A program made the position numbers and the translations under genes. Positions 39,459 to 64,000 of a DNA stretch of 64,000 nt are shown here, one piece after another. The stretch lies in contig JAJEKV010000030.1 of assembly GCA_021234155.1 (NCBI GenBank), positions 940,901-1,004,900 of the forward strand, read 5' to 3'. Under the pieces are notes generated by a model. That model did not search any database, had not been told where the DNA came from, and saw only the letters and a program-made list of their open reading frames with translations. The DNA is from Isoetes taiwanensis (taxonomy: Eukaryota; Streptophyta; Lycopodiopsida; Isoetales; Isoetaceae). Each line of letters starts with the position of its first letter. Position 1 is the first letter of the stretch.

Positions 39459-40024
39459 TTCTTGGTTGACCAAGAACCTAGTAATCAACCATAACCATGA
39501 AGTAGTCTAACAGGCCTATAGGGGTGTGAAATAAACATTTCCACCATGGAACTGGCGAAAATGGGGAAAAAAATTTTTTCTCCTAGGTAGTGGGTCAGGA
39601 CTTAGGTTAAGTGTTAGACGAAAGTTGAAAGAGTCAAACTCATCTTCTAGTAAATTTGGAGTGAAAATTATGCATCTGCATCAAATTTCACCTAAAATGG
39701 GTCAAGAATCATGCCAATCGGAGACCGTGTGAAAATGGCGAAAAGCAAATTCATAAAATTGCACTCGAACCATTAGAAAAATTGAAAATTTAAGTATAAT
39801 ATCAATTAATATAGATTTAACATATACATTAATAATTAAGTAATTACTAAATATCTTGTAATTAATAAGGGGGCTAATAAATAGGGGTAATTATGGTAGG
39901 AGAATATTCCCGGGGACCCTCCTTTTTTAAATATCTGACACCTCATTCTCTCTCTCCAACCCTTCCCTTCACCTCTCTCTTGCTCAGCCTTGCCTTACGT
40001 CACCCATTCCACGAACCACAAGAT

Positions 40025-42359: not shown

Positions 42360-45300
42360 TAGCCACTTGATACCTTGAGGGGCCCGTGATCAAATCCCGA
42401 CATAGAGTCCTCATCATCACTATGGCACCCACGCCAAAAGGTCCATCTCTACGATCCATGAAGACTCACGAAGCAACAGTGGAGTGAACCTTTAATGGGA
42501 GAGCAGGGAGGCAACAAGAATGCGGAGGGTATGCTGAGGCATGACGACGACGGAGAACAGCCATCGACCCACCCGCAAGATCACAAACTTTTGTCACCCG
42601 ATAGTCATCGACGGGAGGAGTACATTTTTATGAACGACATCCTCAACTTGTCCTTATCGGTTGAACAGAATGGTTCTAATCGACGGAGCCTTTTGGGCAT
42701 GATATACTCGAAGCTATACGCATCTCATCAATTACTCATACCGTGATTCCAAGGAGTCATGAGAGACATCTTTATGTCAGGGGAGACACTTCGCCTGGTT
42801 AAGAAATTTCTATCACAGATAAGGAGATCTATTGACGCCAGAACCTATCATCTCGAGGAGGAGTCCGCCAGACATGCAGCACACCTTGCCAAACCAGGAA
42901 GGCCCAAGCTCGCTGCACGCCTCGAGCCGAGTAAGGAGGAAGGTCCAAAGAAGATCAACTTGGACAATGCAACCAGATGTGGAGGATCCGGCGAAGACTC
43001 CATGGCGGGATGCCTACGGGCGGAAGGTGTTCTGAGGGAAGGGTAACGATCAAGCGAGGGCGTAGGGAAAAGACGCAAGACTTCGCTTACTTCATCTTCC
43101 AGCCCTCACCAAGGGCAAATGATGGGCCTTCCACATGGAGTTCATCTAAGGGGAAGGAATCCGGCACTTCTCTATAGCACTTCTGCTTCAGCAAAGACTC
43201 AAGATATACGCCTATGCCATCGTTACATCATTCTTTCACCGTAAGTGGCAGGCCCATTGCCTCCCCGACTTTTGTGAGAGGGCACCTTAGGGACGCAACA
43301 CTTTCGGCAAAGAATAAAGACCGAACTTCCGAACCTGAGATGGCCCCAGCACTTGAAGGAAGATCGATTTGGTGGAACATCTTACAAATAAACCTCGACA
43401 AAGGCCTCCCGATTCGGTGGATGTCAAGAACTTCTTCGTGCTTTCGGGAGGCCATCAATAATTGTGAAATTTTCTTAAGTTTTGTGCTAAATGTTTCGCG
43501 CGGTACCCATTATGCTAAGATATATCTACCTTATCATGTAATCCTTATGTATTAATGACTATTAACCGCTTTTGTCAATGTAAGGCTTTTTGTATGATTT
43601 CTTTATAACTAAAGATAATTCATATTTGCAAGTAAAATTGATCAACATCTAACCCAAATAAAATGTATTGATGATCAATCCTGCAAAGAAAGGAACTCAA
43701 GTGTGGATCTCAAGACCAAAGACCGACCACGAATTGGGTACCAAGGAACTTGTTTGGGGGAACAAGAAGATTTTGAGCAAAAGATATGTCACCAGAGAGG
43801 CGCTCAACGCAAGGTTGGTGCGATGAGGAACCAAATGCAACATCTCATCAACCTGGCTTACACCTCTCATGAATGCACAGTGAAGATGGTCCTCCACCTC
43901 CACCTTGTTTTCCTGTGGTGGTGAAGTCCCCACAGAAGGGAGGGCAACCAGGGAACGCCAAAGGGGTGGATAGGGAGAAGGAAGAGGAGAAACTGCGAGT
44001 CCATCATCATCTAGCTCCACTCTCACTGATAGCCTTCCAAGGATGTTCCTCAAGCCCGCTCGACAACCCGGCACACCTAAAGCAAGGAAAAGAGCAAGAA
44101 AGACGATGTTATCGTAAAAAGGTGGATAGTGCTATGAGCAATGTATGGAAGACAAGGAAGCCCTACCGCCGTGGAAAGACGCATCGTGTATGGAGGTCGG
44201 CATGGCTTGATGAGAATTTGGCAACTCATACTTAGATGAAAGACAAGGACATAGGGGAAAGTTGCTACAAAATTAACCTTATTGGACCGCAAGGATCCGT
44301 GGAAGGGATATGCTAAGTCCAACAAGTTTAAGAGGAACAATTGCGTGTTTAAGACCTTCAAATAGTTAGGCTTTCCGCAAGCACTATGTGCCAAGATTCA
44401 TACTAGTAGACAGATTCAAAGAAGCTTTTACAGTATTGAATCAGTGGTAGCTTATCAAGGGCTGGCATACCAAGAATTTATGAGGCTCAAAGCCGTAAGA
44501 TGTTCCCGGAGTCTCGAGAGGCAAGCCGTGGATACTTACATTGAGGGGGTCAATCAACAAACATCAAGAGGCTTGTTAGAGCAATCAACCCAAGTCAGCT
44601 TTGCACAGCCAAAGATAAAAGCTATAAGTTTGAAGAGGGCAACCAAAGAACTCCAAAGAGAAACAACAACCTTGGGTAAGAGAGTTCAAACAAGTAGCAC
44701 GGGCAATATCGTGGTAAGTAATCAAGGCCTACACCATCGTGGAGTCAAGAAGAAAGGTAAGGGTCGAACAAAGCTTTTGGGGACCGTAGCCGCGCCGCAA
44801 TGCATCAGGTTTCAAGCCGCCGCCTGCATAGCGGCCGGGCTGAAAAAGAGACAGAATGCATTGAGAAAAAGTTATGTTTCACCCGCAGCACCGGGAATTA
44901 CGATTGTCCATTCGCCATGTCCATTGGCGTAACTCTTTCCGATTGGGACTCTCAACGTGTTTTTCGAGGACTAATTTTACCCGCAAATAGGAGGGCCGGA
45001 CTTCATAGATGGTGGAGTGCCATATATATAAAAACATTGAGACAGTGATATAGAGAATCGGGCCACCGTTATCGCCTTTTGGATCTGGATTATAGATAGT
45101 AATCCTTATGTAGTCCTTATAGATAATGTAGCTCTCATATAATTTTGCATCTCCTAGATTATTCGCCTTAATGAAGAACAAGGTATTGAAGTCTAAGCCA
45201 AGGCCAAGATATGGCAAACGTTTCTATCTCGACACACTAAGGGGAGGGAGGATCACCTTTGACATAGACCTTAGTGGGGCTAAGTGGGCCAATGGAGCAG

Positions 45301-47427
45301 AAGTCATGGACATCTAAGATATGATCCGATAGTGGGGATGGAATTTTTGAAGCCAAATAAAAGCCATGATTGATTAAGACCGAATGAAGTCACCATGACG
45401 GCAATCAGATGGCAAGAAATTGATGGTGAAAGGTAAGAAGCTAGATTCTCCCATGCAAAGTAGTTTTTTTGAAGCAGCCTAAGGAAGAGTATAGAAAAGA
45501 ATAAGGTGGACTACATCTTGGAGGATGGAAGCAGCTGAGCCGTGCAAGCAGAGGGAAATGACCCAAAGGGGAATCGGGCCCTGCAGCATAGCAAGGCTTA
45601 TTTTAGAGTTCAAGGATGTATTTCCTGATGAAATCCCGCAAATGCCAATCTTTATAGGGGTGTGGAATGGAGATCACATTGGCTCCCGGATGCGGGTTTT
45701 TCCACCAAGAAGGTGCCATATAGAATGAGCACCCTGCGTAATTGATTGCCTTCAAGTGCGATTCGTGAATTGCTCGAAGCTTGATTTATAAGAGCAAGTG
45801 TGTCCCTTCTCGAGCACTCATACTCTTTGTGAAGAAGAAAGATGGGAGCTTAAGAATGTGCATAGACTATCGCCGCCTTTAATAAGCGCATGATAAAGAA
45901 CAAGTATACATTGCCAAGGGCGTATGATCTAATGGACCAAGCTTATAAGGAGCAAAGGTATTTCTAAAATTGATTTGAGGTCGATACCATCGATAAGAAT
46001 AAAAAGAAAAAGGATATCCATAAGAATCGCCGTAACGAGGATGGTCATTTTGAGTTTGGCTTAATGCCCTTTGACTATCGGTGAATGCTCCAAAGAACGC
46101 TTATGCCATGAACCCATTATCTTCAGACTTCTTTTGATGAGTTTGTTATCGGTACTTCTTCGGACGACATCCTAATCTACAAAAAGTCCCTTGAGGAGCA
46201 TTGTCGATCTCGTAGAAAGTGTTGGTAGTTTCGAGACGCCATCGGCTGTATGGGAAGCTCTCTATGCCACTTTTGCAACAAAGCCGAAAGTGGAGTATTT
46301 GGGGCATGTAGTAACATCATCCGAGGGAATCTCCACGATCCATCATCTAAGATTGAGGCAATAGCTGATTGGCCAGCCCAAAGGAATGTATGCAAGAAGT
46401 TTCTTGCCATGGATATTGGCTGTAAAGTTCGAAGGACTTTGCTAAGGGCCCTCCGGCTCCCGGACCTCACTAAGGCCAAGAAGATTAAGGATTGACCAGC
46501 CATTGGTTAGAGAAAGTCCAAGCTTCGAGAAGCTTAAAGAGGGCCTTAACAACGTTAATCAAGCGTTTTGTTCTTCCTGATCCGAAAGTAAAGATACAAG
46601 TTGAAAGCAAAAAACGATGCAAGCAAGATAGCAACAGGCGCCTTTGATGCAAGAAGGAAGGGTAGTTGCCTACCACTCGAAGAAGATGAACCACGACAGC
46701 AACGCTTACCCAACCCATGATCGTGAGTTGCCAGCCATTGTCGGCATTGAGGATATGGAGGCATTATCGGAAGGAAGTTTCAGCTTTGATATCGATCACC
46801 GTGAGCCTTCAAGATTTTTTTCACCCAGCCACCCTCAACTTAAGGCAAAGGAGGTGGATGGAATTCCTTGAGGAGTATGATTTTTGATATTATATATAAG
46901 CCCGGTAAGCTTATTGTTGTAGCGTGATGCCCTCCGGTGGAGACCATTTCTGCATAAAGGATGCATTGTAATGCGCATTTCCACTTTTTCGAAAGTGAGT
47001 TTGGCAAGAAGATTGAGGAGTCCTTGCCAACGTGATGTGGACTTCCGCGAGGTATGGGAAAGTCTTTCCAAGGAAGCCGAATGAAGGAGCGGAAGCCTTC
47101 AAGCATTATAAGAAGGAAGGCAACCTCGCTTTATCACAAGCATAAGTTGTGTGTGCCCGAATCATCGTGGGTAAGGAAGCTAATTCTTCATGACACACAT
47201 AATGCCTCAATAGCAGTGGCATATATGGCTTGGCGAAGACCTATTTCAAGATTCAAGCAGCTACTGCCAGAATGAAGAGGCGATAGCTTTATTATATTCG
47301 GATTGCCGCTATGTCGTCAGACACCAAATGAAAGAACCCCGGATTCCGTGTGCTCATTGGGGTGCCAAATGCAAAGTGGAGGTCAAGCATGGATTTCATC
47401 ACGTGTCTCCTTAGAACTCTTCGAGGC
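42360..47427 (+). pseudogene. Chromovirus gag-pol, first tandem copy (D1)
   Basis: About 5.07 kb repeated directly by 47428-52500. It begins with a roughly 1-kb region of unknown, broken ORFs (42480-43555). Next comes gag (43800-44660: AWLDENLATHT, then AYQEFMRLKAVRCSRSLERQAVDTYIEG). The protease site region near 45100-45150 has the DTG motif lost to a deletion (IDN-V). RT starts with LEFKDVFPDEIP (45606-45640). RNase H blocks include MQEGRVVAYHSKKMN (46647-46700). The integrase N-terminal zinc-finger region has KLCVPESSWVRKLILHDTHN (47140-47205). It ends at the start of the integrase core (TCTTCGAGGCAG), where it joins the start of D2. It has no chromodomain. More degenerate than D2. Confidence 0.8.
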
Positions 47428-50400
47428 AGTTACGTATTTGCTGATCAAATCCACAGATATAGGAGTCCTCGCCCCTCTACGAATACTACTTAAGCGCGGC
47501 GGTCCGGGGGCACCATCTCCCCGGATCCATAGAGACTACGGCGTAGAATGAGAACCGAGAATGGGGAGGCGAGGGGAGGCAACAAGAATGCGAGGAGGTA
47601 TCGTTGAGGCATGGCGGCGGCGTGAGAGGCGCGGCCTCTGGAGCACCCGGTCGGCATCCACTGACTTAATCACTTGGAAGTAGTCGCCGGCGAGGAGGTA
47701 CATTTCGCGAATGACATCACTCAACTTGTCCCTCTTGCAGCCGAGAGCAGGGTCTTGGTCAGCCGACTCTTAGGCACTTGTGCTTACCGCAGGAAAACCT
47801 GAGACCTCATCTAGGCTACTCATACGAGATTCAAAGGGGCTGGCGGAGGAACATTCTTATCTTTGGGAGACAATGTAGGACATAGCGGCTATCCCGGCCA
47901 GAGATAAAGGGAGATCTATTGGCAGACTATCATCTCGAGAGGAGGAGTTCCGGTGATCTGAGCACACTCTACAAGCAGGGGAAGGGCCCAAGCTCAAGCC
48001 GGACCCGGTTGAGCGAGGAGTATGAGGGAAGAGGTCAGCGGCATCAACGGACAATGCAACCCGGCATGTGGAGGGATCATGAAGACACATTAAGCGTGGA
48101 TACCCTACGGTGAAGCAACTTCGGAAGGAAGAGCCTTTGAATCATGGCGTAGGGAAGGGCCGCGGCTGGCTATCTTCGACCCTCGGCCAGGGCAAATGAT
48201 AGTCTTCCCAAGGAAGTTATTGGGGGAAAAATCCGTGGCACTTCTCATAGCACTTTAGGGCTTCGGGCGCTTTTCGAAGATATCGCCCATACCCGATCCC
48301 ACATCCATTCTTTTCAAGGCGGTCGGCGCTCCATTTACCTCGACTTTAGAGGGCACAGCAGGGGCCTTAACACTTCGATGGTAGCGGCAGCGCCACGGAA
48401 CTTAGGAACCGGAGATGGCGAGCACGAGAAGGAAGATCGGCCGAGGAACATCTTTCGCGCAACCTCGACAAAAGGCCTGGATTCCGGGGATGTCAAAAGA
48501 ACTTCTTGAGGAGCTTCGGGAGGCCAGCGAATAATTGTGAGAAATTTTCTTAAGTTTTGTGCTAAATGTTTCGTGTACCCATTATGCTAATATATATCTA
48601 CCTTATCATGTAATCTTATGTAGTAATGACTATTAAGCTGTTTTGTCAATGTAAGGCTTTTGTATGATTTCTTATAACTAAAGATAATTCATTTGCAAGT
48701 AAAATTGATCAACATCTAACCCAAATAAAATGTATTGATGATCAATCCTTGCAGCAAAAGGAACTCAAGTCGCGAGGATCTCAAGACCAAGACCGACCAT
48801 AATTGGGTACCAAGGAACTTGTTTTAAGGGGAACAAGAAGATTTTGAGGAGGATATGTCACCGAGGAGATCCAACGCAAGGTTGGTGCGATGAGGAACCA
48901 AATGCAACATCTCATCAAGCGGGCGACACCTCTCATGAATGCACGGGGAAGATGGTCCTCCACCTCCACCTTGTTTTTCGGTGGTGACGAAGTCCCTCAC
49001 AGGAAGGGGAGGGCAACCGAGGAACGTCGAGGGATAGGAGAAGGAAGAGGAGAACCAGGAGTCCATCATCATCTAGCTCCGGCTCATCGATAGCTCTTCC
49101 AGTGAGGACAGCTCGCTCGATCCAGTCCAGGGCACACCTAAAAGCAAGGAAAAAAGCAAGAAAGACGGGGAGGATGACTATCGAGGAAAAAGGTGGATAG
49201 TGCTATGAGCAATGTATGGAAGACAAGGAAGCCCGGTTCACCGGGGGGGAAAGAGAAAATCAGGTATGGAGGTCGAAGCATGGCTTGATGAGAATTTGGC
49301 AACTCATACGGTATGAAAGACAAGGACATAGGGAAAGTTACTCTGACTAACCTTATTGGACCGGCAAGGATCTGGTGGAAGGGATATGCTAAGTCCAACA
49401 AGGTGAAGAGGAACAATTGCAGGTTTAAGACCTTGACAAGGCTTTTCATAGAAGCACTATGTGCCAAGATCTCATACTAGTAAACATTCAGCGGTTTCTG
49501 AGGTTGAATGGGGTAGCTTATCGCTGGCTAAGTATACCGAAGAATTTATGAGGCTCAGGCTGCATGTTCCCTCGAGTCTCGAGAGGCAAGCCGTGGATAC
49601 TTACATTGAGGGGCTGAACAACAATATCAAGAGGCTTGTTAGAGCAATCAACCCAAGTCGGTTGGGGCCAAAGATAAAGCTATAAGTTTGGAAGAGGCAC
49701 CAGCAACTCCGGTGCAGAGAAACATCAACCTTAGAGGGGTAAGAGTTCGGTAGCTTGATGTCGGGGGCAATATCGGGGTAAGCAATCAGCTGCTACACCA
49801 TCAGGGGAGTCAGCAGCAAAGGTAAGGGTCGAGAACAAAGCTTTTGGGGACCGTAAGCCCGCGGGAGAAACGCATCGAGGCGGTGCTCTCAAGCGTCTCC
49901 TAGGACGGTGGTCGAAGGAAAAGAGACGAGGAATGCATTGAGAAAAGTTATGCCAGTGCTTCGGGGAACGCCCGAACACATGATTGTCCATTCGTCATGC
50001 GGTGACCTTGGCGAGAACTCTTGGATTGGGACTCCCCAACGAAGCGGGCGGGGGCGGCGACCCGGCGGGAGGGCGGGGACTTCATAGATGGTGAGTGCCA
50101 CATATGTGCAAACATTGAGGCAGTGATATAGAGAATCGGTCCGATCACATTGTGCAGGCGGGATCATAGATAGTAATCCTTATGTAGTCCTCATAGATAC
50201 TGGTAGCTCTCATAATTTTGCATCTCCTAGATTGGCTGCTCTAATGAAGAACAAGGTATTGAAGTCTAAGCCAAGGCCCGATAGCTATGGCAAAGCGGCG
50301 CCATTACCGCACACTAAGGGGAGGAGGATCACCTTTGACATAGACCTTGAGTGGGGCTAAGTGGGCCAATGGGGCCGAAGTCATGGACATCGGAAGATAT

Positions 50401-53400
50401 GATCGATAGTGGGGATGGAATTTTTGAAGCCACCAAAGCCATGATTGATTGCGGCCCGGAATGAAGTCACCATGGCGGCACCGTGATGGCGACAAATTGA
50501 TAGTGAAAGGTAAGAAGCTAGATTCTCCCATGCGGTGTATTTCTTTGAAGCGGCTAAGGAAGAGTATAGAAAAGAATAAGGTGGACTACATCTTGAGGAT
50601 GGAAGCGGTTGAGCAAAAGCAGGAGGAAATGACCCAAAGGGGAATGGGGTTGCCCAGGCGAATAGCAAAGGCTTATTCCGAGTTCAAGGATGTATTTCCG
50701 GATGAAATCCGGCGTAGCGCCCCTTATAGGGGTGTGGAATGTGAGATCACATTGGCTCAGGATCGCAAGCCTACCGGTAAGGTGCCATATAGAATGAGCA
50801 CCCCGTAATTGATTGAGCTCAAGAAAGCGACGAGGAATTGCTTTCGAGCTTGGATTTATAAGAGCAAGTGTGTCTCCTTTGAACACCTATACTCTTTGTG
50901 AAGAAGAAAGATGGGAGCTTAAGAATGTGTGCATAGACTATCGCCCGACTTAATAGCGAGGCGATAAAGAACAAGTATACATTGCCAAAGGGCAGATGAT
51001 CTAATGGACCCGGTTACAAGGAGCAAAGGTATTCTCTAAAATTGATTTGAGGTCGGGATACCATCGGATAAGAATAAAAGAAAAGGATATCCATAAAGGC
51101 GCTTTCAGAACGCGGTATGGTCATTTTGAGTTTCTGATAATGCCCTTTGGACTATCGAATGCTCGAACGTTTATCGCCTCATGAGCGACATCTTGAGAGA
51201 CTTCTTGGATGAGTTTGTTATTGTCTTCTTCGACGACATCTAATCTCACAAACAAGTCCCTTGAGGAGCATTGTCGACATCTCGGGGAAAGTGTTGGAGA
51301 AGTTGAGGCGTCATCGGTTGTATGGGGAAGCTCTCTAAGTGCCACTTTGCAACAGCCGAAGTGGAGTATTTGGGGCATGTAGTAACATCCGGGGAATCTC
51401 CACGCAGATCCATCTAAGATTGAGGCAATAGTTGATTGGCCGGCTCAAGGAATGTGGCAGAAGTAAGAAGCTTTCGGGTTGGCGGGATATTACAGAAAGT
51501 TCGTGAAGGACTTTGCTAAGTGGCGTCCCCTCTGTCCGGACCTCACTAAGGCCAAGAAGATTAAGGATTGGACTAGCCATTGGTTAGAGAAAGTCCAAGC
51601 TTCTTTTGAGAAGCTTAAAGAGGCCTTAACAAGCGGCACGGTGCTTGTTCTTCGGATCCGAGTAAAGATAAGTTGGTAGCAAGCAGAGATGCAAAAACAA
51701 GATAGCAAAGGGGGCGTCTTGATGCAAGAAGGAAGGGTAGTTGCCACGACTTCGAAGAAGATGAGCGACGCCGAGCAGCGCTTACCCAACCCATGATCGG
51801 GGAGCTGCTAGCCATTGTCGGGGGCATTGAGGATATGGAGGCATTATCTGGCGGGAAGGAAGTTTCGGTTGGATCGCGATCACCGAGCCTTGATATTTTT
51901 TCACCCGACCACTCCTCAACTTAAGGCAAAGGAGGTGGATGGAATTCCTTGAGAGTATGATTTTGATATTATATATAAGCCCTGGTAAGCTTAATGTTGT
52001 AGCAGATGCCCTCTCCGGGGAGACCATTTCGGACAGGGATGCATTGTATGTGATTTAGTCGAAAGAGAGTTTGGCAAGAAGATTGAGGAGTCCTTGCCAG
52101 GATGTGGACTTCAAGGAGGTATGGGAAAGTCTTTCCAAAGGAAGCCGAGCAGATAAGGAGCGGGGAAGCCTTCAAGCATTATAAGAAGGAAGGCAACTTT
52201 GTTGTATCCAAGCATAAGTTGTGTGTGCCAGAATCATCGGGGTAAGGAAGCTAATTCTTCATGACACACATAATGACCCAATAGCGGGGCATCTTTGGCT
52301 TCATGAAGACTTATTTCAAGATTCAAGTAGCTGCCGCCGAATGAAGAGAAAGATAGTCGCATATATTCGGGGATTGCCGGTTATGTCCGGACCAAAGCGA
52401 GCAACCGGATTCCGTGTGCTCTTGAGCCATTGGGGTGCCAAATGCAAAGTGGGAGGTCATAAGCATGGATTTCATCACGAGGTCTCCTAGAACTCTTGAG
52501 GCAAGGATGCATTGATGGTTGTCGAGATAAGTTATCTAAGATGGCACATTTTGTGCCTTGCAAGACCGACAACCGCATTAGATCTTGCCAAGTTATTTGT
52601 AAGGGAGATTTTTTAGACTCCATGGCATGCCCGAGGAGATAATATCGATAGGGATTCCAAGTTTATGAGTGCCTTCTGGGGGGGACCTCTTCAAACACCA
52701 TTGAGGCGAAGCTCTCCATGAGCACGACATATCATCCCCAAACGGATGGCCGGCGGAGAGGGGCTTAATCCGGATCATTGAAGACATGCTTGAAGCTATG
52801 TGTGGAACAAGCGGTCCAAGTGGGATGAGTACATCCACTTGGTGGAATCGCCTACAACGATTGCCAAGCGAGGAGTCATCTCGGATGTCTCCTTTCATGG
52901 TAAATTACGGTACCGGTGCTTAACCCGGGATACCGGCACAATCCTGTGTCCAAGGTAGAAGTATCAGCGAGATGTTAGGGGATATCGTGAGAGCTAGTGG
53001 AAGAAGTAAGGGGTTATTTATTGGCGGCAAAGAAGTCGAGAAGAGTGTAGCCGACAAGCTGAGGACCGTAAAAGAGAGTTCAAGGTGGCGATAGCGTCAG
53101 GTTGAAGATAAAGGTGAAGCAAAGCAAAGGCTGCGGATTGGGGCTGCAAGAAGCTTGCCCCTAGGTGGGCTGGTCCGTTCAAGATTTTTGGGAGAGTGGG
53201 CTCTCAAGCCTAAAAAGTTGGATCTTCCAGCCCATCTCAAGGTTTCAAGGTCTTCCCGTAAGTTTATTAAAAGGCACAATCCTAACCCGAGGAGGTTTTG
53301 GATACTCCAACCTTGTTGGAAATGGCCGGAGGAGCAAGTAGAAATAGTGCTGAATTGCTTCTTGATAAGTCATTCAAGAAGACTAGGAGGTCTCGGTTCC

Positions 53401-53510
53401 TCCGGTATTTGGTTAAGTGGAAGCACTTGCAGGTGGAAGATGCGACATGGGTATTGAAGCAAGACTTGGAGAAGCAATACCCGAGAGTTTATGAAGGAGT
53501 TTGATGGCGA
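47428..53510 (+). pseudogene. Chromovirus gag-pol, second copy (D2), with integrase and chromodomain
   Basis: Unknown 5' ORF region 47545-48600. Gag 48830-49690 (TEEFMRLRLHVPSSLERQAVDTY). Protease IDTGSSHNF (DTGSS at 50196-50210). RT: EFKDVFPDEI (50677-50706), GVECEITLAQDRKPTGKVPY, KIDLRSG (about 51039), [14 protein letters not shown] (51121-51160), catalytic VFFDDI (51223-51240). RNase H: GVLMQEGRVVA, AKEVDGIP and FDIIYKP (51710-51985). Integrase zinc finger: HDTH, AGHLW, then DCRLC (about 52250-52395). The core is in several frames (52450-53000). The chromodomain lies at the C-terminus. These domains give reverse transcription, integration and targeting in a Ty3/gypsy element. The RT and protease catalytic motifs are intact, but about a dozen frame breaks separate the blocks; many occur where D1 keeps CAG or CTG. 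Confidence 0.9.
53364..53504 (+). CDS. Chromodomain at the integrase C-terminus
   Basis: Part of an intact 68-codon frame (53298-53504). FLRYLVKWKHLQVEDATW shows the chromodomain core: beta strands with Tyr and two Trp at the aromatic-cage region, then a helix DLEKQYPRVYEG ending at a stop. Chromoviral chromodomains target integration to chromatin, and several bind histone H3 methylated at Lys9. Its presence in an element that also encodes an H3 tail with Lys4 and Lys9 is noted under findings. Confidence 0.85.
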   Translation, partial: DKSFKKTRRSRFLRYLVKWKHLQVEDATWVLKQDLEKQYPRVYEGV

Positions 53511-54393
53511 GTGAGTCTCAGACTTGGAGTGGGCCAGACTTGCCAAGTGGTTAGCTAGTATGTTGTTAGTTAGTTTTAAGCTTTGGCATGCATTCTAGTT
53601 ACTAGGGTGCATGTGCGAGAACCTTGGATCGTGTGGGCGATGATGGGATGCGCCTTTAGGGCATTCTCTGAGCCACACGCACCAAGAGGTGCGCATGACC
53701 ATTAGGGTCATGTGAGTGAGAATGAGGCATGGTGGGCGATGATGGGACATCGACGGATGATCTCTATGCCGCGATCGCGGGACTTTTTAGGAGGGTCATG
53801 GTGAAGGTTAAAAGTGATCATCTTGCCGATGATGGGATCGTGAGGCGTTCCTAGCTTCAAACCCGTGGGGCATGATGCACTAGGGGTTTTCGACCGGGTA
53901 GCTTAAGTACAAGGTAGCACTTCGATCATGGGCGATGATGGGAGCATCTTAAATGATCCTTAAGCTCAAATCCGAAAGGGCCATGATCTTGGGCAAGGTA
54001 GTAGGACAACCTTGAGTCGATGGTTCGGCTCAAGGAGGTAAGGGGTGGTCCCCTAAAACCACAAATTATTAACTAAACTAACGTAATGTGCTCTTTTTTG
54101 AGGCAAGTAGAAGGTGGACTTCAACGAGGAGGCGCATTCTGAGAAGATAGGGGGAGCCATAATTTAGATTATGAACCCTAATAACTCTTACAATAATGTT
54201 TTGAATTATCGTAAGAAATAGCGTGTTAAGGCTATATAATTTTGTATAAGTACAAATATAGCCTAAATTTTTTGACTTGAACTAATAAAACTTGATTACT
54301 ATAATAAACTAAAGGTTATGACATGTTGTTGCTTGTGCGGGCATAAGGTAGGTTCGTCACCTTAGCGCTTAATCTTCGAGGACATCATTGTCC
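53511..54393 (+). other. Chromovirus 3' untranslated region
   Basis: No ORF with a domain. It contains several degenerate copies of a GGGCGATGATGGGA-type motif (about 53635, 53726, 53826, 53930), then AT-rich sequence before the polypurine tract. Confidence 0.6.
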
Positions 54394-54404
54394 TAAGGGG
54401 AGAA
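54394..54404 (+). promoter_or_regulatory. Polypurine tract of the chromovirus
   Basis: TAAGGGGAGAA directly precedes the TGTGACGG start of the 3' LTR, as expected for plus-strand priming. Confidence 0.85.
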
Positions 54405-56045
54405 TGTGACGGTCGGGGGAATATACGCCATAAACACGTATATTCACGGATCGAAGTCACCATACAAGTCTATCTTCATAGCCTTGTATACCATAGATTG
54501 TGGCACTAGGGGGCATGGCTAAGTTATTCTCATAACTTAGCCAACCATAGGTTAAGCCATTATCCACGTGGCCTTAACCTATTGGGGCAGCCGCCACCGC
54601 AAGGACTCACCCGATTGGTGCCGCGTGGCATCCTAGGTGGACCTAACTTATATAGGCATAAACCCTAACCTAGACCTCTTTTCCGGCCCTAGCACCCGAG
54701 ACTCACCTACTGCGTTTGAACCCCGTTTGAACATGGTTTGTTGTGGCATAGGCGGTGCAAAGCCCGGCCCGGCAGGTAGAACTTCGTTCTTGGAGTAGGA
54801 GCGGCATCTCGTGAGCTCCGGAGACCATGGAGGCACACGGATGGAGGGAGAGCTTCAGAGGCGGTATGTAGGATAGTAGTTGTGATAACTCATGCGGAAT
54901 TAGCATTCGGATGTGCTAGTATCTTGTATCTAGAGTAGAGCCATCCTAGAACCCATATTCAACATCTTGAACCCTAATCAAGGAACCCTAACCATTAGTT
55001 AGTTGTATGATTAGGTTAAGATGTTCTTCTTATGATTATTCTCATGATGTGATGATTATGTGATGATGGTTGATCATGTTTGCTCCTCTTGTATTGGGAA
55101 GGGGGTAGAGACCTAGAGCCATATGTAGTATGCTCCTAGAGTAGATCCCTTAGTTCCTATTAGTTGCTGGCTGTGTGCATAGGAGCCCACCCGGGCTATT
55201 GAGGCTATGATATGACTCGGCACCATATACTTGGGGCTAGAGGGAAAGTGGAGGGAGGATCCCTGCCAAGTGGGGGGGCCGGGGGATCCCATAGTGGGCT
55301 AGGCTTAAACATGGTGGTCACTTCGTGTGTGGGCGAGCATGGGTCGACACCTCTCAGGGCAATGGTGTTGCCACGCCTCTCGAGAGCTGCAAGTGTTGGC
55401 TTGGCTCTCGTTTTGGGGGTTCGCCGGGCAGTGCAATGGTGTGTCGCCCACGATTCTCTAGCCACCGGCACCTCTAGATCTAGGAAGGGGAGATGCAACC
55501 CTTCTGCCTCATCGGACGGGGAGATGCAACACAGGGTAGTCCCAGATGGGTGATGCCATGGGATTGCGTATCAGGAAGGCTAGAGTCTGTCGAGGCTGAT
55601 CTAGCCCATTTGCAAAGTATGCCAGGGAGGGAGGGATGGAGTGGTCAACCCTAGCCATTGTTCTATGCCAGCCCTCGCCATTGCCATGACTCGGTCTGCT
55701 CTATCTTGAGGCCTAGCCGGTCGGTCATCCTCCCACGAAGTGCGAGCGGGGTAGGAGCTCTCATGTTTTATGGTTCGCGTGATTATCATCTTTGCCTTGG
55801 TTTATGAGTGATGCACTACCCTTCGGTAGTATTTGTATATGTTGATGCTAGTTCGGCGTGTTATCGCCTCCGCCGTTATAGGAGCCCATAGGGAAGGGCG
55901 CCAAGACACACCTTCGTGTTCCCTTCCCGCACTAAGAGTCACCTCGAGTGCGGGGGTAGGCGAAAGGGCCCATGCGGTTATTGAGCCGGATGGGGATTTC
56001 TGCCGAAAGTGTGGCCCGGTATGACGTTTAGCGAGGGCGTCCACA
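54405..56045 (+). repeat. 3' (shared) LTR of the chromovirus (1641 bp)
   Basis: Starts TGTGACGG after the polypurine tract and ends CCACA before a second primer site. It serves as the 3' LTR of the full element and as the 5' LTR of the truncated unit that follows. Nearly the same length as the 5' LTR. Confidence 0.9.
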
Positions 56046-58151
56046 ATGGTATCGAGGCGATGTTCTTGGTTGACCAAGAACTAGCACTCGACCATAACCA
56101 TGAAGTAGTCTAACAGGGGCCTATAGGGGTGTGAAATAAACATTTCCACCATGGAACAGCGAAAATGGGGAAAAAAAATTTTTTTTTCTCTAGGTAGTGG
56201 TCGGGACTTAGGTTAAGTGTTAGACGAAAGTTGAGTGAGTCAAACTCATCTTCTAGTAAATTTGAGTGAAAATTATGCATCTGCATCAAATTTCACCTAA
56301 AATGGGTCGAAGAATCATGCCAATCGGAGAGACCCGGTGAAAAATGGCGCAAATTCATAAATTGCACTTGAACCATTAGAAAAATTCGAAAATTTAAGTA
56401 TAATATCAATTAATATAGATTTAACATATACATTAATAATTAAGTAATTACTAAATATCTTGTAATTAATAAGGGGCTAATAAATAGGGGTAATTATGGT
56501 AGGAGAATATTCCCGAGGACCCTCCTTTTTTAAATATCGACACCTCATTCTCTCTCTCCAACCCTTCACCTTCACCTCTCTTCTTGCTCGACCCACGTCA
56601 CCCATTCCACTGAACCACAAGATATGGCACGCACCAAACAAACAGCTAGGAAGTTTGGCCCCCACCCTCTCTATGGCATGCAGTAGCGGTGGTCAAGACG
56701 TGAAGAAGAAAGTTCGAGCACCTTCGGCCGAAGCCCGGAGGCGAGGAATCGCCCTCAAGCAGCAGCCAGAAGCACCGAGCTTTCCACGATCGGAGAGCAG
56801 CCCCAATAGCAGCCCCTCGGGCAGGAACACAAAGAACGGGACGAAGTCCGCCCTGGGCCTCGGACACGAGGTGGAGGAACAGTTGAAGAACAGGTGGAGG
56901 AGCAGACCACCACCGCGGAAGAAGAAGCGGCCCCTTAGTGCCCAAAAGAAGGGGAAGGAAAAAGTCGCTGGAGTGGCTGTAGAGGAGAGGGTCAGCCGAA
57001 AAGAAGCTGGAGCCGGAAAGGGAGCTGAGGGAGCAAGAAAGGCGCACGGAAGAGAAGGAACGACGCGGCCTCGCGGACCACCAAGCTATTGAAGAGCCCC
57101 TGGCCGAGGAGGAGCCACAAGTGGAGGAAGAGGAGGAGGAGGGGCAGTGTGACCTCGGACGCTTAGGCCACCCCCACCCCAGTGGGCGGAACCACCTAAG
57201 GTGGTGAAGAAGCTGTGCTGGGGGAGCGGGTATCATGCCCAGCCAGACCGCGAAGTTTAAGCGAAGATGGTGGTGATACGTGGAGTACCTTCGCTGCTGG
57301 ACGAGGTACAATGAGTGGTACCGCCGCCAGAGGTGCAATGCTGCCGGGGAGGGCGGCAGTCAAGAAGAACCAGCCCAAGCCACCCCCACCTAGGGCCGAA
57401 AACCCAAGAGGGTTCACCACGCCGAACAGCACATACATACCGTAGTTTAGGGAGATTCTAGCACTTCGGATGTGCACGAATCTCGATAAGGAAGGCGCCC
57501 CGGCGTCTCCTTAGAGATGTTGCAGCGATTCAGGACCGATTATAGGGTTACCCCTCTAATGACCCGGGCCCCGCAAAGAGGCTTAGAAAGCGGCTGGTCC
57601 GGCTCTTCGAGGAAGGGAACCTCTGCGCTATCCATGCTAAGAGAGTTACCCTTATGCCTAAGGATATTCACTTAGCACGGAGGATTCGCAGAGAGAGGCC
57701 TTAGGCCTCAAATTTTGTAAATTTTGTTAGAAAAGAGAAACTCCCATGTAATTGTGTTTCTTATTAATATAAAAGTTACTTTCCCTCTGTAAATTAGAAA
57801 AATGTTGTATGCTTGAAATATAGGAAATAGAACCCAATTGTGGTAGAATTCTTCATAGCATGTCTAGAAACACCCTAGAAATCATGACTACAACAAAATT
57901 TTGGCAAAAAAAATCATCAAAAATGCTGAAAATCGGGCCAAAGGGTGAGACCAGCCCTAAGGCCCTCGCGTCCCGACGCACGCTGCGTGCTGGATTCACG
58001 GCCCCCGGGCCCAAAATCATGCTTTTAGATGTCAGTTTTGCTCAAAATAAGTTGCTAGTTAGGTTAGAATTGGCCCAATTAGCCATATTAGCATCTTTAA
58101 ATTCCCAGAAATGACCAAAAATTGGCCCAAAACAGGCCAACCGGGTGAGAC
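56046..58151 (+). mobile_element. Second, truncated chromovirus internal region
   Basis: It repeats 39443-41580: primer site (56047), leader, H3-like ORF and its downstream spacer. It then stops abruptly after AACCGGGTGAGA, where segment A' begins (CCGATACTC). No gag-pol follows. The LTR-internal-LTR-internal arrangement suggests recombination between tandem copies, or an assembly join. Confidence 0.85.
56624..57704 (+). pseudogene. Histone H3-like protein of the retrotransposon, copy 2
   Basis: The ATG at 56624-56626 is in frame with MARTKQTARKFG, identical to H3 residues 1-9 plus the initiator. A stop appears after 20 codons in this frame. The linker is Ser/Pro/Lys-rich (56700-56990), then a charged helical stretch, EPERELREQERRTEEKERRG (about 57012-57071), then Glu-rich. 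The fold shows KAP-RRLLRDV (57492 on), [12 protein letters not shown] in another frame, LVRLFEEG, and a C-terminus [20 protein letters not shown] + RRIRRERP (57618-57701) before TAG. That last 28-residue block equals canonical plant H3 at 24 positions. The loop-1 region has the canonical H3 length and lacks the longer loop typical of CENH3. Being second in the tandem unit, it can be compared with copy 1 base by base. Confidence 0.9.
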
Positions 58152-58369
58152 CCGATACTCAAATTACATTTTGGGAACCTTATCACAAGTGCTGCAAACA
58201 TGGCTAAATGATCCATCTTTCCACGATCTTCCATTCGTAGTAGTTGGCTGCACGGTCATCATAACAACAAACATCGATGTCACACCCAAAATAGTGACTT
58301 CTCCCTAAGTAATTGTCCTCTTCAATCCAATCCAATTCAATTTATATTACTTTGCCCTAATTTCCCTGC

Positions 58370-59298
58370 CCCTTTATTTTCTATGGCCTCTGGCGTGTTT
58401 TTTTGCTAGTTATTATTATAATATTGGCATCCCCCTCCATTCCTATGCAATCGACATTATAAGCCTCCTTGATGTTGTTCTTATAACGAGCTATTTTTTT
58501 TTTTTTTATCTAGGTGCGAATCAAAGCCCTCCTTTCCACATAGGCATCAGCATATTTTTGGACCTCCAGCTCTTTCTCTTTTCCATCGGGCATTTCCATA
58601 AGCAGTGCTTTTGCAATTGCCTTGGCATCTGGCCGACCGAGCCCTTTTCCCGGCCTACGTTTTATTTTTCACGTGGAACGGGATCAAGCTTGTATCTCTC
58701 AACATCTTGGCTCATGTCCTTTTGCCTCCTCTTATGCTTGGTGCGAGCACGCAATCTCTACCTCATCATGACCCAACTCCACCTCCAATCGGCCCTCTTC
58801 ATACGTTCCATCCACGGTCCTCAAACATATAGCACCATTTGCTTCGTTTTCATATTATAGTGAAAGCCCCTTTTCGAGCCTAATCATCAATCTCGGAATG
58901 TGCCTCCATGGTGCAGTCGGGCCTCCACTTTGCCTCTGAGGACCATGCCTTACCTTCCTTAGGGAGGTCGGTTGCTCAAAGTCGACCTCAACAATAGTTC
59001 TTTGCTCCTCTTTGATGTTCTTTTGATGCATATTAGGTTGATTCGCTAAAATCTCTCCGCGCCCACGGTAGCTCTTTCTGGATTGGGAAAAATTCCTCAT
59101 CTGAATCGGTCTCGACAACCCCGGACCGAGGGCGACCTATCTGACCCACTATCCTCACTTCTTGTTTGCTCACTCGACATCTTCTCCTTTGCCGAGGAAT
59201 GGTTGATCTCGCTTCGCCATACCCACGTTTCAAAAGACATTCTTTGCTTTTCCCTAATTTTTTTCCTACATGTATGCACGAGCCCTCTAGGCATCATG
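58370..59298 (-). pseudogene. Unknown ORF in segment A', broken
   Basis: Second copy of the 31926-32897 ORF. The minus-strand blocks RVSKQEVRIVGQIGRP, ETDSDEEFFPIQKELPW and ANQPNMHQKNIKEEQRTIVE are in two overlapping frames (58855-59233). The C-terminal part that is open in A is broken here. Basic, no recognised domain. Confidence 0.45.
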
Positions 59299-59390
59299 TG
59301 GAAATTGGTTCGAACATAGGCATACATTTGCCTTCGTTTCGCGCCCCTAAAAATACTTGCAATTAGGGCTTTGGTTCTAGCAATAAAAAA

Positions 59391-59745
59391 GTGGCCACAT
59401 TAACCAGTAGACGCTAATAACCTGTGGCCACATTAACCACCATAAGTTGTGGCCATATTAACCACTATAATCTGAGGCCACATTAACCTATGGCTACACT
59501 AACTACTATAACCCATGGCCTTATTAACCCATGTCCACATTAACCCATGCCCACATTAACCTATGACTACACTAACCACTATAACATGTGGCCACATTAA
59601 TCCATATCCACATTAAGTTATGACCACATTAACCTATGGCAACACTAACCACTATAATAACCTGTGGCCATATTAACCCATGTCCACATTAACCTATGGC
59701 CACACTAACCACTATAACATGTGGCCACATTAACCCATGCCCACA
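59391..59745 (+). repeat. Satellite array 1, copy A'
   Basis: Identical to 32991-33345 at an offset of exactly 26400 bases. Confidence 0.95.
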
Positions 59746-60275
59746 CAGGGTTCAAGTTTGACGGCACCCCCTAATTTTCCAATAAGAGGCACTTTTTTTT
59801 TTGGTCTTTCATATGACAGAATGTTGATCAATTTGAACCTTTCAATTAACATACAAAAATTTTAATTGACGGAAGATAGTTTTTCAATTATAAACTTAGA
59901 ACAAAAAGGTAAGTTACATAGTAGTAACTACTAATATAAACATACATTAAAAAAGTTAAGAGTAGCAGATGTGGGGCTCTGGTTAATGTCCATTGGCGAA
60001 TGTCAATGACGGAGACAATGACAGCCTCTATGCTCGGCAGCGTTCGCTCTGACTGAAATGTGGTGAAAAAACCAATCCACAAACTCCATACAAAGACGCC
60101 ATTTTGTGAAAAAGGGGGGAAAGAACAAAAAAAAAAATGCTCTGAGCATTACCGACTTATTGCAAAGAGCCATGGCAAACAACTGGCAGAGCAAAAATGT
60201 CTCGGATTTCCCAAATTGGTGGATTCGTTGGGAAATGGGAGAATGTAGAAGGAATCGAAAATGTAGAAGTTAAAA

Positions 60276-60306
<31 letters not shown>

Positions 60307-60581
60307 TTAATGTTACCTAATTCATTATTCTATTAGAGGTAAGGTACATTAACTCGATATGCCTATAAAATAACCCTACTACTTATACAAAAATGAAAGG
60401 CAAATTTCCATTCGGGACGTTTCAAATGACACACACTTTTTTTTTTTTTTTGCTTTTCTATATGATAGGCAAATTGATATTTGTTACCCTTCATATGCAG
60501 GGCAGTTTCTTTTGCTGCCTGATTTGACGGGCAAAAAAGCCAAAAAACAGGCATGAAAGCTGTCAAACTTGAACCCTGTGT
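59743..60581. mobile_element. DNA element with inverted ends, copy A' (839 bp)
   Basis: The ends ACACAGGGTTCAAGTTTGAC (59743-59762) and its inverse (60562-60581) are perfect 20-bp inverted repeats. The inside is non-coding, with T-rich runs and an (AAAT)n run at about 60272-60305. Non-autonomous. The superfamily is uncertain: the CAC start would allow CACTA, but no 3-bp target duplication is clear. Confidence 0.6.
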
Positions 60582-61236
60582 CCACATTAAGTTATGGCCA
60601 CATTAACCTATGGCCACACTAACCACTATAACCTGTGGCCACATTAACCCATGTCCACATTAACCTATGGCCACACTAACCACTATAACTTGTGGCCACA
60701 TTAACCCATGTCCACATTAACCTATGGCCACACTAACCACTATAACTTGTGGCCACATTAACCCATGTCCACATTAACCTATGACCACATTAACCACTAT
60801 AAACTGTGGCCACATTGACCCATGTCCACATTAAGTTATGGCCATATTAACCGATGGCCACACTAACCATTATAACACAGAGGCACATTAACCTATGGCC
60901 ACACTAACCACGATAACACCAGGGCCACATTAACCCATGTCCACATTAACCCATGTCCACACACTACTGAGTTGTGGCCATATTAACCCATGTCCACATT
61001 AACCTATGGCCAAACTACCCACTATAACTGTGGCCACATTAACCCATCTCCACATTAACTTATGGCCACACTAATCACTATAACATATGGCCACATTAAC
61101 CTATGTCCACATTAAGTTATGGTCACATTAACATATGGCCACACTAATCACTATATCCTGTGGCCACATTAACCTATGGCCCAACTAACCACTATAAACT
61201 CTGGCCACATTAACCTATGTCCACATTAACCCATGT
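60582..61236 (+). repeat. Satellite array 2, copy A'
   Basis: Same TGGCCACATTAACCYA family and 57-bp higher-order unit as 35490-36152, with a few differences in unit length. Ends within about 10 bases of the LINE ORF1. Confidence 0.95.
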
Positions 61237-61245
61237 CTATTGATC

Positions 61246-62187
61246 ATGTTTGATTCTCCTGTTCCTGTGGATAAGCTTGTAGAGCGTGGAGTAGAGTCCT
61301 TATGGGAAAACTATCTGATATATCAAGCTTACACAACTGGTTTTGCACCTAATAAGTCAAATGCTCTCTGCATGCCTTGTTGGTTTGCTTTGGAAGACTT
61401 TCCAATTGAAATGCAAGTTCCCGAGTTCATGGTGGCTATTGCTAACGGTCTGGGGTTGCATCTTTCCCACTCTATTGTCAATGGTCCTCGCATTTGTGTA
61501 TCTCTGTCTATTTCTGCTTCATTACCAAAGTCTGTTATGGTTAGGAGTGGCCCTCTGTCCTTTAGATATCATCCATCTTTGCTCAATGGTCCTGAGTTAG
61601 GTAAGATGTTCCCTGATATTGATACTTTTGCTGCTTACCGCCTTGCTTCTCCCTTGAAGCCTGTTCTTTCTTCTACTGCTGCACCTGCCACTTTCATCTC
61701 TATTGTGGCCACACATCCTACTGTTGCTCATGTGCCTTCATGTCTTTCTATTGTGTCCTCCACGCCTACTCAATCAATCCCTTCACCTCCTGCCCAACAT
61801 CAGCCATTTGATGACGAGGTACGTCGTAGATTGCAAGACATTCAAGAGACACAAGAAAGGCGGGAAATGATGAATGAGGGATGGCAGCGAGTCAGTTTAA
61901 AGAAGGCGGCACGAAATAAGCATGCGCATGTCACATCGCGCTCTTCTGAAGGCACACATGGAAGGGTTGAGCGAAGCGGAGGCTCTCCCTTACCACCTGC
62001 GGGTCAGCATACAGAGAGAGCTGATCTAGAGTGTTCTTCTATTGGGAAGGATGAGCAGAGCGGAGGCTCTCCTTCGCCAGGTATCTTACACAATGGAAGG
62101 GTGGAACAGAGAGGAGGCTCCCCCTACCAATTTTCAAAACACAATGGGCAGATCTCCCACTTAATGATGCTGCTGAGATGGATGTAG
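61246..62187 (+). CDS. LINE ORF1 protein (DUF4283-like nucleic-acid-binding)
   Basis: An uninterrupted ORF of 313 codons from ATG 61246 (MFDSPVPVDKLV) to the stop at 62185-62187; an upstream TTG at 61240 is not used as a start here. Residues about 40-115 (MPCWFALEDFPIEMQVPEFM, IANGLGL, GPRICVSLSISASLPKSVMV, YHPSLL) resemble DUF4283, an RNA-binding domain common in plant LINE ORF1 proteins. The usual CCHC knuckle after it is not evident. The rest is Ser/Pro-rich, then charged (RRRLQDIQETQERREMMNEG), with repeats of SGGSP. ORF1 proteins package the LINE RNA. It ends 19 bases before ORF2. The copy at 36170-37080 is frameshifted. Confidence 0.75.
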   Translation: MFDSPVPVDKLVERGVESLWENYLIYQAYTTGFAPNKSNALCMPCWFALEDFPIEMQVPEFMVAIANGLGLHLSHSIVNGPRICVSLSISASLPKSVMVRSGPLSFRYHPSLLNGPELGKMFPDIDTFAAYRLASPLKPVLSSTAAPATFISIVATHPTVAHVPSCLSIVSSTPTQSIPSPPAQHQPFDDEVRRRLQDIQETQERREMMNEGWQRVSLKKAARNKHAHVTSRSSEGTHGRVERSGGSPLPPAGQHTERADLECSSIGKDEQSGGSPSPGILHNGRVEQRGGSPYQFSKHNGQISHLMMLLRWM

Positions 62188-62206
62188 AACATCATCATAT
62201 ATCTTG

Positions 62207-64000
62207 ATGAACATACTATCTTGGAATGTGAGGGGTGTAGCTTCTTCCCCATGTAAAAGGAGCAGGCTATCTAATTATTTGTCTAAGTTTCCAATAGATT
62301 TTTGTTGTCTTCAAGAGCACAAGTGCTATAAAGGTGGAGTGCGTAAGGAAGGCAATTGGGGCCGCAATTGTGGGTGGTTCTTCGCTTCTAACTCGCCTAA
62401 AATTTGGAGTTCTCACCGCTTGGAAACCTTCCCTTAATGTTACTTTTACTCAAATAGGCGGATTTGGGCCGGTGGATAATAGTCAAATGGATAAATAAGG
62501 GGCAAGAGTGGGGAATTGTGAATGTGTACGCACCTAATCAGCCACGTCAGTGAGGCTCTCTGTGGGCCACTTTACGGACTAAGATTATGCAGCTCGGTCA
62601 TAATGTAGCATGGCTACTAGTTGGTGATTTTAATATGGTTGAGTTTGAAGCGGATAGGTGTGGTAGGGGTACACAAAGGTTGTTCAGTGGATTTGAACGT
62701 GAGCGTGGGATGGGCGACTTCAGCCGGACCTGAGAATGGTAGAGGTTGGCGGAGACCGGTCTTTTACGTGGTGTAATGGCCGATTTGGACCGTGTAGAGC
62801 TTACGCTCGGCATGATCGTGGGTATTATAATGTAATAGCTGTGTGCCTTATGGGTAACTTGCAAAGGACAAATATATTGGATAGTTCCATATCTGATCAT
62901 AATCCACAATGGCTTTCGATCACAGCGCCAGTGCATAGATGAGCTACAAGAATTTATTTCAAGCTTAACACTCGATATTTGTTAGACCCAGAGTTTACTA
63001 ATGGCTGCAGGCATGCCTGGTCCTCTACATTCTCTCGTCTTCGAGGTATGTATGGGGTTGTTGACTCTTTGGCAGCAGTTAATCCTTTGCTAGCGGTGGG
63101 GATGTAGGAAAGCCTTGGCTGACTAGAGGCCTGACTACTAGCTTTGTATATGGAGCTTCAAATGTGTCGTTCACAAGCCCCTTCATTAGGTATTCGAGAG
63201 AAAGAGTTGTTGGCAGAAATAAGAAATATTGAGTCAATACAGGCAACTCAAGCTCGCGTTAAGGCCGGTTTGGATTGGTCTAAATTGGAAGATAGGTGCT
63301 CTCACTTCTTCTTTAAGGCGGCAAGGAGAAGACGTGTGTCAAGCTCCATATCTTCGCTACTTCTACCTGATGGCTCACGAAATTTACGATCTTTGCCGCA
63401 GTTAAAGTAATTTCTTTTTATCATTTCTCTGCTTTTTTTGACGGTCTACCGCCTTCCAAGAGGATATGCAAGAGGTCGCTTTTTATCTAAGATCCATCCT
63501 ATTATTTCCCCACAACGTAGTGTTCGGTTGGAATCAACTATTATGCGCCGATGATTTGCATTCTGGTAGAGACTCTTTAAAGAAGAATAAGTGCCCAGGC
63601 TTGGATGCTTTTCCTGCAGAGTTTTTCCAAGCTTATTGGAATTGGCTTGGTGATGACATCTTCAATGCTTTCTCTGAGTTTCGCCGGTTCAGAAGCTTGG
63701 ATAAGATTATCAACACTGGTTGCATTTCCCTTATTCCTAAGTGCAAAGAGCCTAAAACTATCTCGGATTTGGCCCTATAACTTTGTTATCTACGATGTAC
63801 AAGGTCTTTGCTAAGGCCTTGGCAGAGAAAGTGAGGGATATCTTAGCAGAGTCTACCTCTTTCACACAATCAGATTTTTACCTAAGCGCTGTATTCTTGA
63901 TAATGTGGCCGCCGCTTATGAGGGGATGTATTGGGCGCGTCTTAAGGGTCAGCACATTGTATATCTCAAACTAGATTTTGCTAAAGCCTATGACAATATA
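62207..64000 (+). pseudogene. LINE ORF2: endonuclease and reverse transcriptase, broken, partial
   Basis: ATG 62207 (MNILSWNVRGVASSPCKRSR). APE endonuclease blocks: FPIDFCCLQEHKC, EWGIVNVYAPN (62510-62540), LLVGDFNMVEFEADRCGRGT (62615-62675), SFTWCN (62760-62777) and the catalytic SDHNPQWLS (62893-62920). Then a linker with KLEDRCSHFFFKAARRR, and RT blocks KNKCPGLDAFPAEFFQAYWN (63586-63645), INTGCISLIPK, LLSTMYKVFAKALAEK (63785-63830) and LDFAKAYDN at the edge. Endonuclease and RT together nick the target and prime cDNA synthesis. Frame changes occur at about 62400, 62700, 62950, 63415 and 63770. The RT catalytic FADD-type box lies beyond the window. Confidence 0.85.

Follow-up and report, generated by a model that had tools for sequence, protein, structure and literature searches.

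Introduction

The nearest relative in kind that we found for the gene described here is the histone H3-like ORF (H3L) carried by a hAT DNA transposon of the fungus Pyrenophora tritici-repentis (Manning et al. 2013, PMC3538342). Among retrotransposons, orchid Ty3/gypsy elements carry AlkB, an m6A demethylase (PMC9289625), and the extra ORFs of plant Ty3/gypsy elements have been surveyed (PMC6317226). An H4 encoded by a bracovirus is incorporated into host nucleosomes and, via its tail, changes the expression of host genes (PMC5423620), and in the Arabidopsis variant H3.15, K27 is replaced and assembly of the variant removes H3K27me3 (PMC10426802). The word retrotransposon is absent from the main text of a review of DNA-virus histones (PMC9145170), and the word histone from the main texts of the Isoetes taiwanensis (PMC8566536) and I. 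sinensis (PMC10541799) papers. In full-text literature searches, whose coverage excluded most subscription papers, we met no report of a histone gene carried by an LTR retrotransposon.

We analysed a window of 64,000 nucleotides from the quillwort I. taiwanensis, in which an initial annotation had proposed that a Ty3/gypsy chromovirus carries its own H3-like gene, and compared it with the genome as assembled. The assembly, built from nanopore, Illumina and Bionano data, is given as 1658.30 Mb in 204 scaffolds and 909 contigs (PMC8566536). The sequence searched here held 1,658,258,908 bases in 1110 contigs.

Results

A tandem LTR structure in the window

All features of the LTR structure are on the plus strand. 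Self-comparison of the window showed a repeat pair, 37805-41567 and 54405-58152, which starts with the 5′ LTR (TGTGACGG...CGCCACA, 37805-39442, boundaries read directly). It is followed by a primer binding site (PBS) of the initiator-Met type with a deletion (TGGTATCGAGC, 39444-39455; other copies have TGGTATCAGAGC), by copy A of the H3-like ORF (40025-41111), broken by indels, and by a broken ORF1-like accessory ORF (41912-42364), which matched the ORF1 piece of the C1102 element described below with 50% identity (tblastn E 6.6e-35). Gag-pol is found twice in direct order (43320-47428 and 48395-52503, 81% identity in the self-comparison), the first unit being partial and broken (44055-47427) and the second broken, with a chromodomain at its end (49115-53526; chromodomain at 53286-53501, Pfam PF00385, E 1.9e-8). 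A polypurine tract (CTAAGGGGAGAA, 54393-54404), also read directly, stands immediately 5′ of the 3′ LTR (54405-56045; self-comparison, boundaries read), which is at the same time the 5′ LTR of a second, partial internal region. This region restarts at a second PBS (56047-56058), contains copy B of the H3-like ORF (56624-57704, indel-broken), which starts 577 bases past the primer site, and ends at 58152. The Pfam matches to Chromo (1.9e-8) and RVT_1 (8.5e-8) agree with the assignment to the Ty3/gypsy chromoviruses. Gag-pol is doubled here inside one LTR pair; a single copy is present in the C1102 element, which belongs to this subfamily.

A block of ~4.7 kb before the 5′ LTR (31738-37804) recurs after copy B (58152-62886). 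Its left copy carries an extra insert of 1.3 kb (~33735-35067), and its right copy shows the empty site of the LTR insertion, reading GATAGT and then TCCATATC. The block, perhaps a non-LTR element, contains CCACATTAACCCATG-type repeats in arrays, and an ORF in it matches DUF4283 below the threshold (E 0.11). Nested insertion, tandem duplication and joined alleles are indistinguishable as origins of the block repeat around the LTR element. Elsewhere in the window we found a Copia-type reverse transcriptase remnant (856-1323, Pfam RVT_2 E 2.4e-18) and 2.6 repeats of an AAGGCC-rich 28-base unit with zero mismatches (13238-13309).

The H3-like ORF as read in the window

The ATG at 56624 opens copy B with MARTKQTARK, as the initial annotation had read it. 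Its last 52 codons (57546-57701) form an open stretch that matched Pfam Histone (E 2.7e-13) and H3 chains of the PDB (~1e-13), and the reported agreement of 24 of the 28 terminal residues with canonical H3 is correct as read. The histone-fold part of copy B (57486-57704) is nearly readable, with one stop, and showed 53% identity to canonical H3 over 73 columns (tblastn E 2e-14). Chance similarity to H3 is ruled out by reversed-pattern controls, which gave 0 matches.

The second copy is likewise present at 40025-41111, but the view that the two occupy independent positions did not hold. Both are the LTR-adjacent internal region, which the tandem structure contains twice (LTRs at 37805 and 54405); since they are parts of one structure, copies A and B are not independent insertions, and the repeat pair rules out two independent H3 insertions in the window. 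Nor does the window contain an intact gene, neither copy being one open frame. Per hundred columns, copies A and B differed by 0-8 mismatches in the AT-rich flanks, by 20-44, plus gaps, in 10 of 11 stretches of the ORF, and by 16-21 in a GC-rich non-coding stretch downstream. Because mismatches and gaps cluster in the GC-rich stretches while the AT-rich flanks are nearly identical, the breaks of the window ORF appear to be long-read errors left uncorrected in a repeat of high copy number.

The H3-like ORF belongs to a multi-copy family

The H3 region of the window matched at least 39 other places in the genome at 76-86% identity, a count taken from the 40 of 1283 first candidates that were scored (41 matches listed, less the window itself and the second piece of one place). 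The exact 25-mer of the H3 start was found 32 times in the genome, 2 of them in the window and 30 outside, against 0 for the reversed control. The whole fold was open from its REIR motif in five of 15 fetched copies (L034, L036, L044, L045 and L048).

A 26-base marker lying ~130 bases upstream of the H3 start (up to 2 mismatches allowed) detected 496 loci in the genome, the reversed control giving 0. Every fifth of the first 100 loci, which followed contig order as far as C1033 and all matched the marker exactly, was sampled regardless of H3, and 1.45 kb downstream was read. The H3 fold was present in 20/20 sampled loci (tblastn E 9.4e-10 or better) and the MARTKQT tail in 17/20; one locus (L056) has a large internal deletion, and most of the 20 contain, as assembled, short open frames only. 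The presence of the fold throughout the sample rules out a single recent host-gene insertion. At L021, two LTR-flanked units stand in a row, the second of which consists of a leader and then pol, without H3, ORF1 or the gag start; it is a family member without H3, but a defective one.

A single frame of 369 codons was read at L063 (MARTKQTYRKPGPR...), with a MARTKQT start, a linker of ~265 residues between tail and fold, a full fold and the RRIRRERP end, and L067 has an open frame of 368 codons. Pfam Histone matched both (L063 E 5.2e-29, 101.4 bits against a cut-off of 26.4, complete H3 fold; L067 E 2.2e-26). The best PDB matches of the L063 protein were to H3 (E 6e-31), 59 of the 60 shown being named H3 or H3 variant and one "Histone domain-containing protein". 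The proposed layout of tail, long linker and fold is thus seen in one frame, and the description as a complete H3 gene stands for the family, though not for the window copy.

In a Pfam Histone search of the genome, the best 150 of 8705 first candidates were scored and 150/150 were over the cut-off. The ordinary host H3 of 136 aa was among the first 15; among the other 135, ten were examined (L016-L020, L026-L030) and 10/10 were H3 of the types named TE1 or TE2 below. Frames reached 400 aa in 36 of these best 150 candidates. Transposon H3 genes probably outnumber host H3 genes in this genome. In the host H3 proteins of the A31 type (L001-L014), positions 41 and 90 are Y41 and L90, and T87 was observed in L001-L003; several of the genes are clustered on C1025 (2.98-3.28 Mb) and on C445. 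Viral contigs probed with the fold of the window subfamily (TE3) and a 29-base pattern of the H3 start yielded no confirmed relative.

Sister subfamilies and a second accessory ORF

TE1 elements encode fusion proteins of 434-459 aa (L018, L021, L026, L027 and L028, two of which are the same place), in which an N-terminal domain, a Q/N-rich part and a shortened internal tail (RTKHPSTGGK or similar) precede the fold (L026, Pfam Histone E 1.2e-43). The N-terminal domain (MPRFKLTVDLKK..., residues 1 to ~210, L026:4358-5734 and relatives) is under selection. TE2 is one locus (L019) with broken frames, a related N-terminal domain and an adjoining ORF1. This second accessory ORF ("WYLDGEHWDPAVPFDLLHP"), located 3′ of the H3 ORF and ~400-480 aa long in TE1 and TE2, was seen at L021:4779-6227, L019, L026, L028 and L049:4542-5123. 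ORF1 of TE1 and TE2 share 46% identity, and that of TE3 has weak similarity to TE1 (E 6e-4 in a two-sequence comparison). A Pfam search with ORF1 and the TE1 N-terminal domain gave no family over the cut-off. Gag-pol DNA identity among the subfamilies is 66-70% over longer stretches. Over 87 residues of the fold, identity to host H3.1 is 77 in TE2, 70-74 in TE1 and 58-59 in TE3.

Complete elements are Ty3/gypsy chromoviruses

A complete TE3 element is readable on C1102 (L049, L050), with the target duplication TGTTG on both sides. Its LTRs (499-2106 and 11455-12990) enclose a perfect initiator-Met PBS (TGGTATCAGAGC) at 2108, the H3 start at 2682, in a frame that is itself interrupted, an ORF1-like ORF, gag-pol-chromodomain in several frames to 10605, and a polypurine tract (CTAAGGGGGGGAGAA) before 11455. 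A sister element on C1019 (L027, L032), flanked by CAATC on both sides, consists of LTR, PBS, an H3-fusion ORF of 453 aa, gag-pol with one stop, chromodomain and LTR. A third, on C1047 (L028, L033), comprises an H3-fusion ORF, ORF1 and gag-pol between paired LTRs. The position between primer site and gag-pol, first noted in the window, is that of the H3-like ORF in the elements on C1102 and C1019 as well. At L027, the domains follow in the order Retrotrans_gag, RVP_2, RVT_1 (7e-39), RNaseH (4e-33) and Integrase_H2C2 (1e-20), all over the cut-off, with rve just below it (4e-7) and one stop between RT and RNaseH; the pol ends of L027 and L028 carry sequence similar to the window chromodomain. 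The elements show the paired LTRs, 5-bp target site duplication, tRNA PBS, polypurine tract and gag-PR-RT-RNaseH-INT order of Ty3/gypsy, and the chromodomain C-terminal to integrase of chromoviruses. Transduplication of the hAT type is ruled out, the three elements being bounded by direct LTRs and encoding gag-pol. The LTRs of a pair differ at 82/1489 columns (a few flank bases included) and 73/1656 columns, a divergence inflated by assembly error, and we therefore give no age.

Selection, age and origin

Selection was estimated as dN/dS by the Nei-Gojobori method. For TE1 fold pairs, with no identity filter, dN/dS was 0.025-0.107, at dS values that extended almost to saturation (one pair was identical and another had a dS that was not computable), and it was 0.13-0.24 in the part before the fold. 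In the same way, the unfiltered TE3 fold (five sequences, ten pairs) gave 0.02-0.10 in 7 pairs and no nonsynonymous change in 3, and the part before it 0.13-0.39, raised by out-of-frame starts in some; the L034-L048 fold gave 0.13, from 3.5 synonymous against 1.5 nonsynonymous changes. Local-identity filters lower dN/dS. At columns of at least 70% local identity, five partial TE3 frames gave 0.05-0.39, the highest values (0.19-0.39) being those with L045. At columns of at least 60%, TE1 pol gave 0.04-0.10, compared with 0.055 for the unfiltered L027-L028 fold, and the whole TE1 fusion ORF of L027-L028 gave 0.142. Assembly errors should push dN/dS up, not down. These estimates (fold dN/dS 0-0.13) indicate strong purifying selection on the fold, close in strength to that on pol, and we regard it as nearly certain that these elements contain an H3-type accessory gene under selection.

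Synonymous sites are saturated between the element folds and host H3, and the capture is therefore old. A tree of the fold was built from 22 rows, reference sequences included; its bootstrap was not settled and most of its forks are unresolved. TE1 formed one group (98/98), TE1 and TE2 joined (85/84) and TE3 was a long branch (100/100). The CENH3 of Arabidopsis and rice were separated from the rest of the tree (96/96); human CENP-A and yeast Cse4 did not stand apart, and the folds align without a loop-1 insertion. No element fold joined plant CENH3 in this tree, which represents it by the Arabidopsis and rice proteins, and on that basis we reject a CENH3 origin. The captured host H3 of the initial annotation is thus supported as to kind, the folds grouping with H3 apart from plant CENH3, but saturated dS fixes neither donor nor date. 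One capture for TE3 and TE1/TE2 is favoured over two, because of the shared position, the related gag-pol and perhaps ORF1; the fold tree does not resolve this.

Nucleosome contacts, tails and structure models

We considered 21 positions in the fold that we take to be DNA-contact or H3-H3′ positions, a set not derived from structures. In L034, 20/21 of them are as in host H3, against 38/66 elsewhere in the fold (p 0.00075), the sole change being D106 to E. The same test gave p 0.053 for L019, 0.12 for L018, 0.094 for L027 and 0.041 for L025, in which the contacts are not clearly better kept than the rest of the fold. TE3, the most divergent subfamily, seems by this comparison to have retained what the nucleosome needs. 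Positions 87, 89 and 90, the chaperone-selective sites of H3, are L, T and R in L034, unlike host H3, and standard HIRA or CAF-1 loading may therefore fail.

The TE3 tail corresponds to H3 residues 1-9 only. K4 is present in 17/17 tails and K9 in 14/17, with S10 in 1/14 of those; K9 is mostly followed by P or T in place of S10. In a hand alignment, the TE1 tail has RxK and a GK-type end, without a counterpart of Q5-K9 (QTARK) and without the ARKS context, and other lysines remain. The full conserved H3 tail (K4, K9, K14, K27, K36), compared by hand, was found in neither TE3 nor TE1. As K9 is kept in 14/17 TE3 tails, the argument that methylation at K9 is precluded is inapplicable to TE3 and rests on TE1.

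AlphaFold modelling gave low confidence: the TE1 fusion reached a pLDDT of 38.7 from 4 sequences and the TE3 fold one of 57.4 from 12, although the model of the TE3 fold has four helices in H3 order. The pol chromodomain has KWKHLPVEDATW and is without two of the three cage aromatics in a hand alignment to HP1.

Discussion

Taken together, these comparisons make it fairly probable that the ORF is an accessory gene acquired long ago and retained, encoding an H3 variant that is competent to form nucleosomes, has altered tails and acts on chromatin for the element. The TE3 product of ~369 aa consists of H3 residues 1-9, a charged linker of ~265 residues replacing the remaining tail, and a complete H3 fold; the TE1 and TE2 products carry the H3 fold behind an N-terminal domain, with a shortened internal tail in TE1. 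Such a protein would pair with host H4, would be loaded into nucleosomes by host chaperones, and would alter chromatin to the benefit of the element, in the simplest case by diluting the H3 that bears silencing marks. That the element H3 enters nucleosomes is, judged from its sequence, rather likely; the long fused part could hinder nucleosomes. That it counters silencing is a more tentative suggestion, made because of the precedent of H3.15 (PMC10426802).

A stronger form, which we consider possible and on balance doubtful, would have the element place its own tailored H3 on its new copies or on host heterochromatin, where silencing through H3K9 and H3K27 would be blocked. The tailoring would lie in the missing K9 counterpart and K27 context of TE1 and in the altered context of K9 in TE3. 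If true, a retrotransposon would hold a piece of counter-epigenome, kept under selection.

The protein might instead be a tether, its fold and tail docking the pre-integration complex or capsid on chromatin while the fused domain or linker binds gag or integrase and directs integration. In all three subfamilies the fold is linked to a long stretch of non-histone sequence, which is under selection in TE1 and TE3 (dN/dS 0.13-0.39), and a chromodomain short of two cage aromatics might be helped by another chromatin contact. A free H3 fold, however, cannot dock on a finished nucleosome, and the H3-H3′ and DNA contacts kept in L034 exceed what docking needs, which leaves this reading unlikely. We judge it quite unlikely that the protein is a decoy, or dominant negative, titrating H4, chaperones or methyltransferases away from silencing with no lasting deposition: the TE3 tail, kept through K9 in 14/17 and devoid of the later sites, and the divergent chaperone-selective positions of L034 would suit it, but a decoy does not require the octamer and DNA contacts conserved in L034. 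A recent chance capture by simple transduplication, amplified with the element and unused, is very improbable, for although many copies are broken in the assembly and captured gene pieces are common in transposons (PMC3538342), it is contradicted by the fold dN/dS of 0-0.13, which also holds between copies of high synonymous divergence, by the H3 fold in 20/20 sampled loci and by a saturated synonymous divergence from host H3 that is not recent.

On the favoured reading, that of an H3 variant acting on chromatin, the chromatin of the host may in part be built from a protein supplied by a genomic parasite. Should the element H3 be expressed, part of the signal of antibodies against H3 tail marks may come from a transposon protein. 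In plants, the marks that silence transposons are written on histones as their substrate. With an H3 of its own, kept through several subfamilies under a constraint close to that of pol, and with a tail rewritten at the sites of silencing marks, the lineage offers a direct test case for parasites that would counter silencing by swapping the substrate rather than the enzymes.

The fungal hAT transposon resembles the quillwort elements in having an extra, H3-like ORF that is neither H3 nor CenH3, with tail insertions and many copies. It differs in its terminal inverted repeats and in its 26 near-identical recent copies, which in its authors' account may have drifted (PMC3538342), whereas the quillwort elements are LTR retrotransposons with an old gene, long extra parts, an H3 fold in 20/20 sampled loci and strong purifying selection. 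Viral histones are also core histones encoded by a parasite, but the parasites are DNA viruses (PMC5423620, PMC9145170). H3.15 serves as a model for the proposed mechanism, being an H3 variant with a tail unable to receive a silencing mark that its assembly removes; it is a host gene, not mobile, and the accessible text mentions no long linker or fused domain (PMC10426802). The AlkB and extra-ORF elements share with the present ones a host-type protein fixed in an LTR lineage and thought to serve the element, and 5′ extra ORFs are known among them, but the accessible texts name no histone among the acquired domains (PMC9289625, PMC6317226). Acquired domains and extra ORFs are thus already known in Ty3/gypsy elements, and the mechanism proposed here would, if shown, be new: unlike an AlkB-type acquisition, a core histone could itself enter host chromatin.
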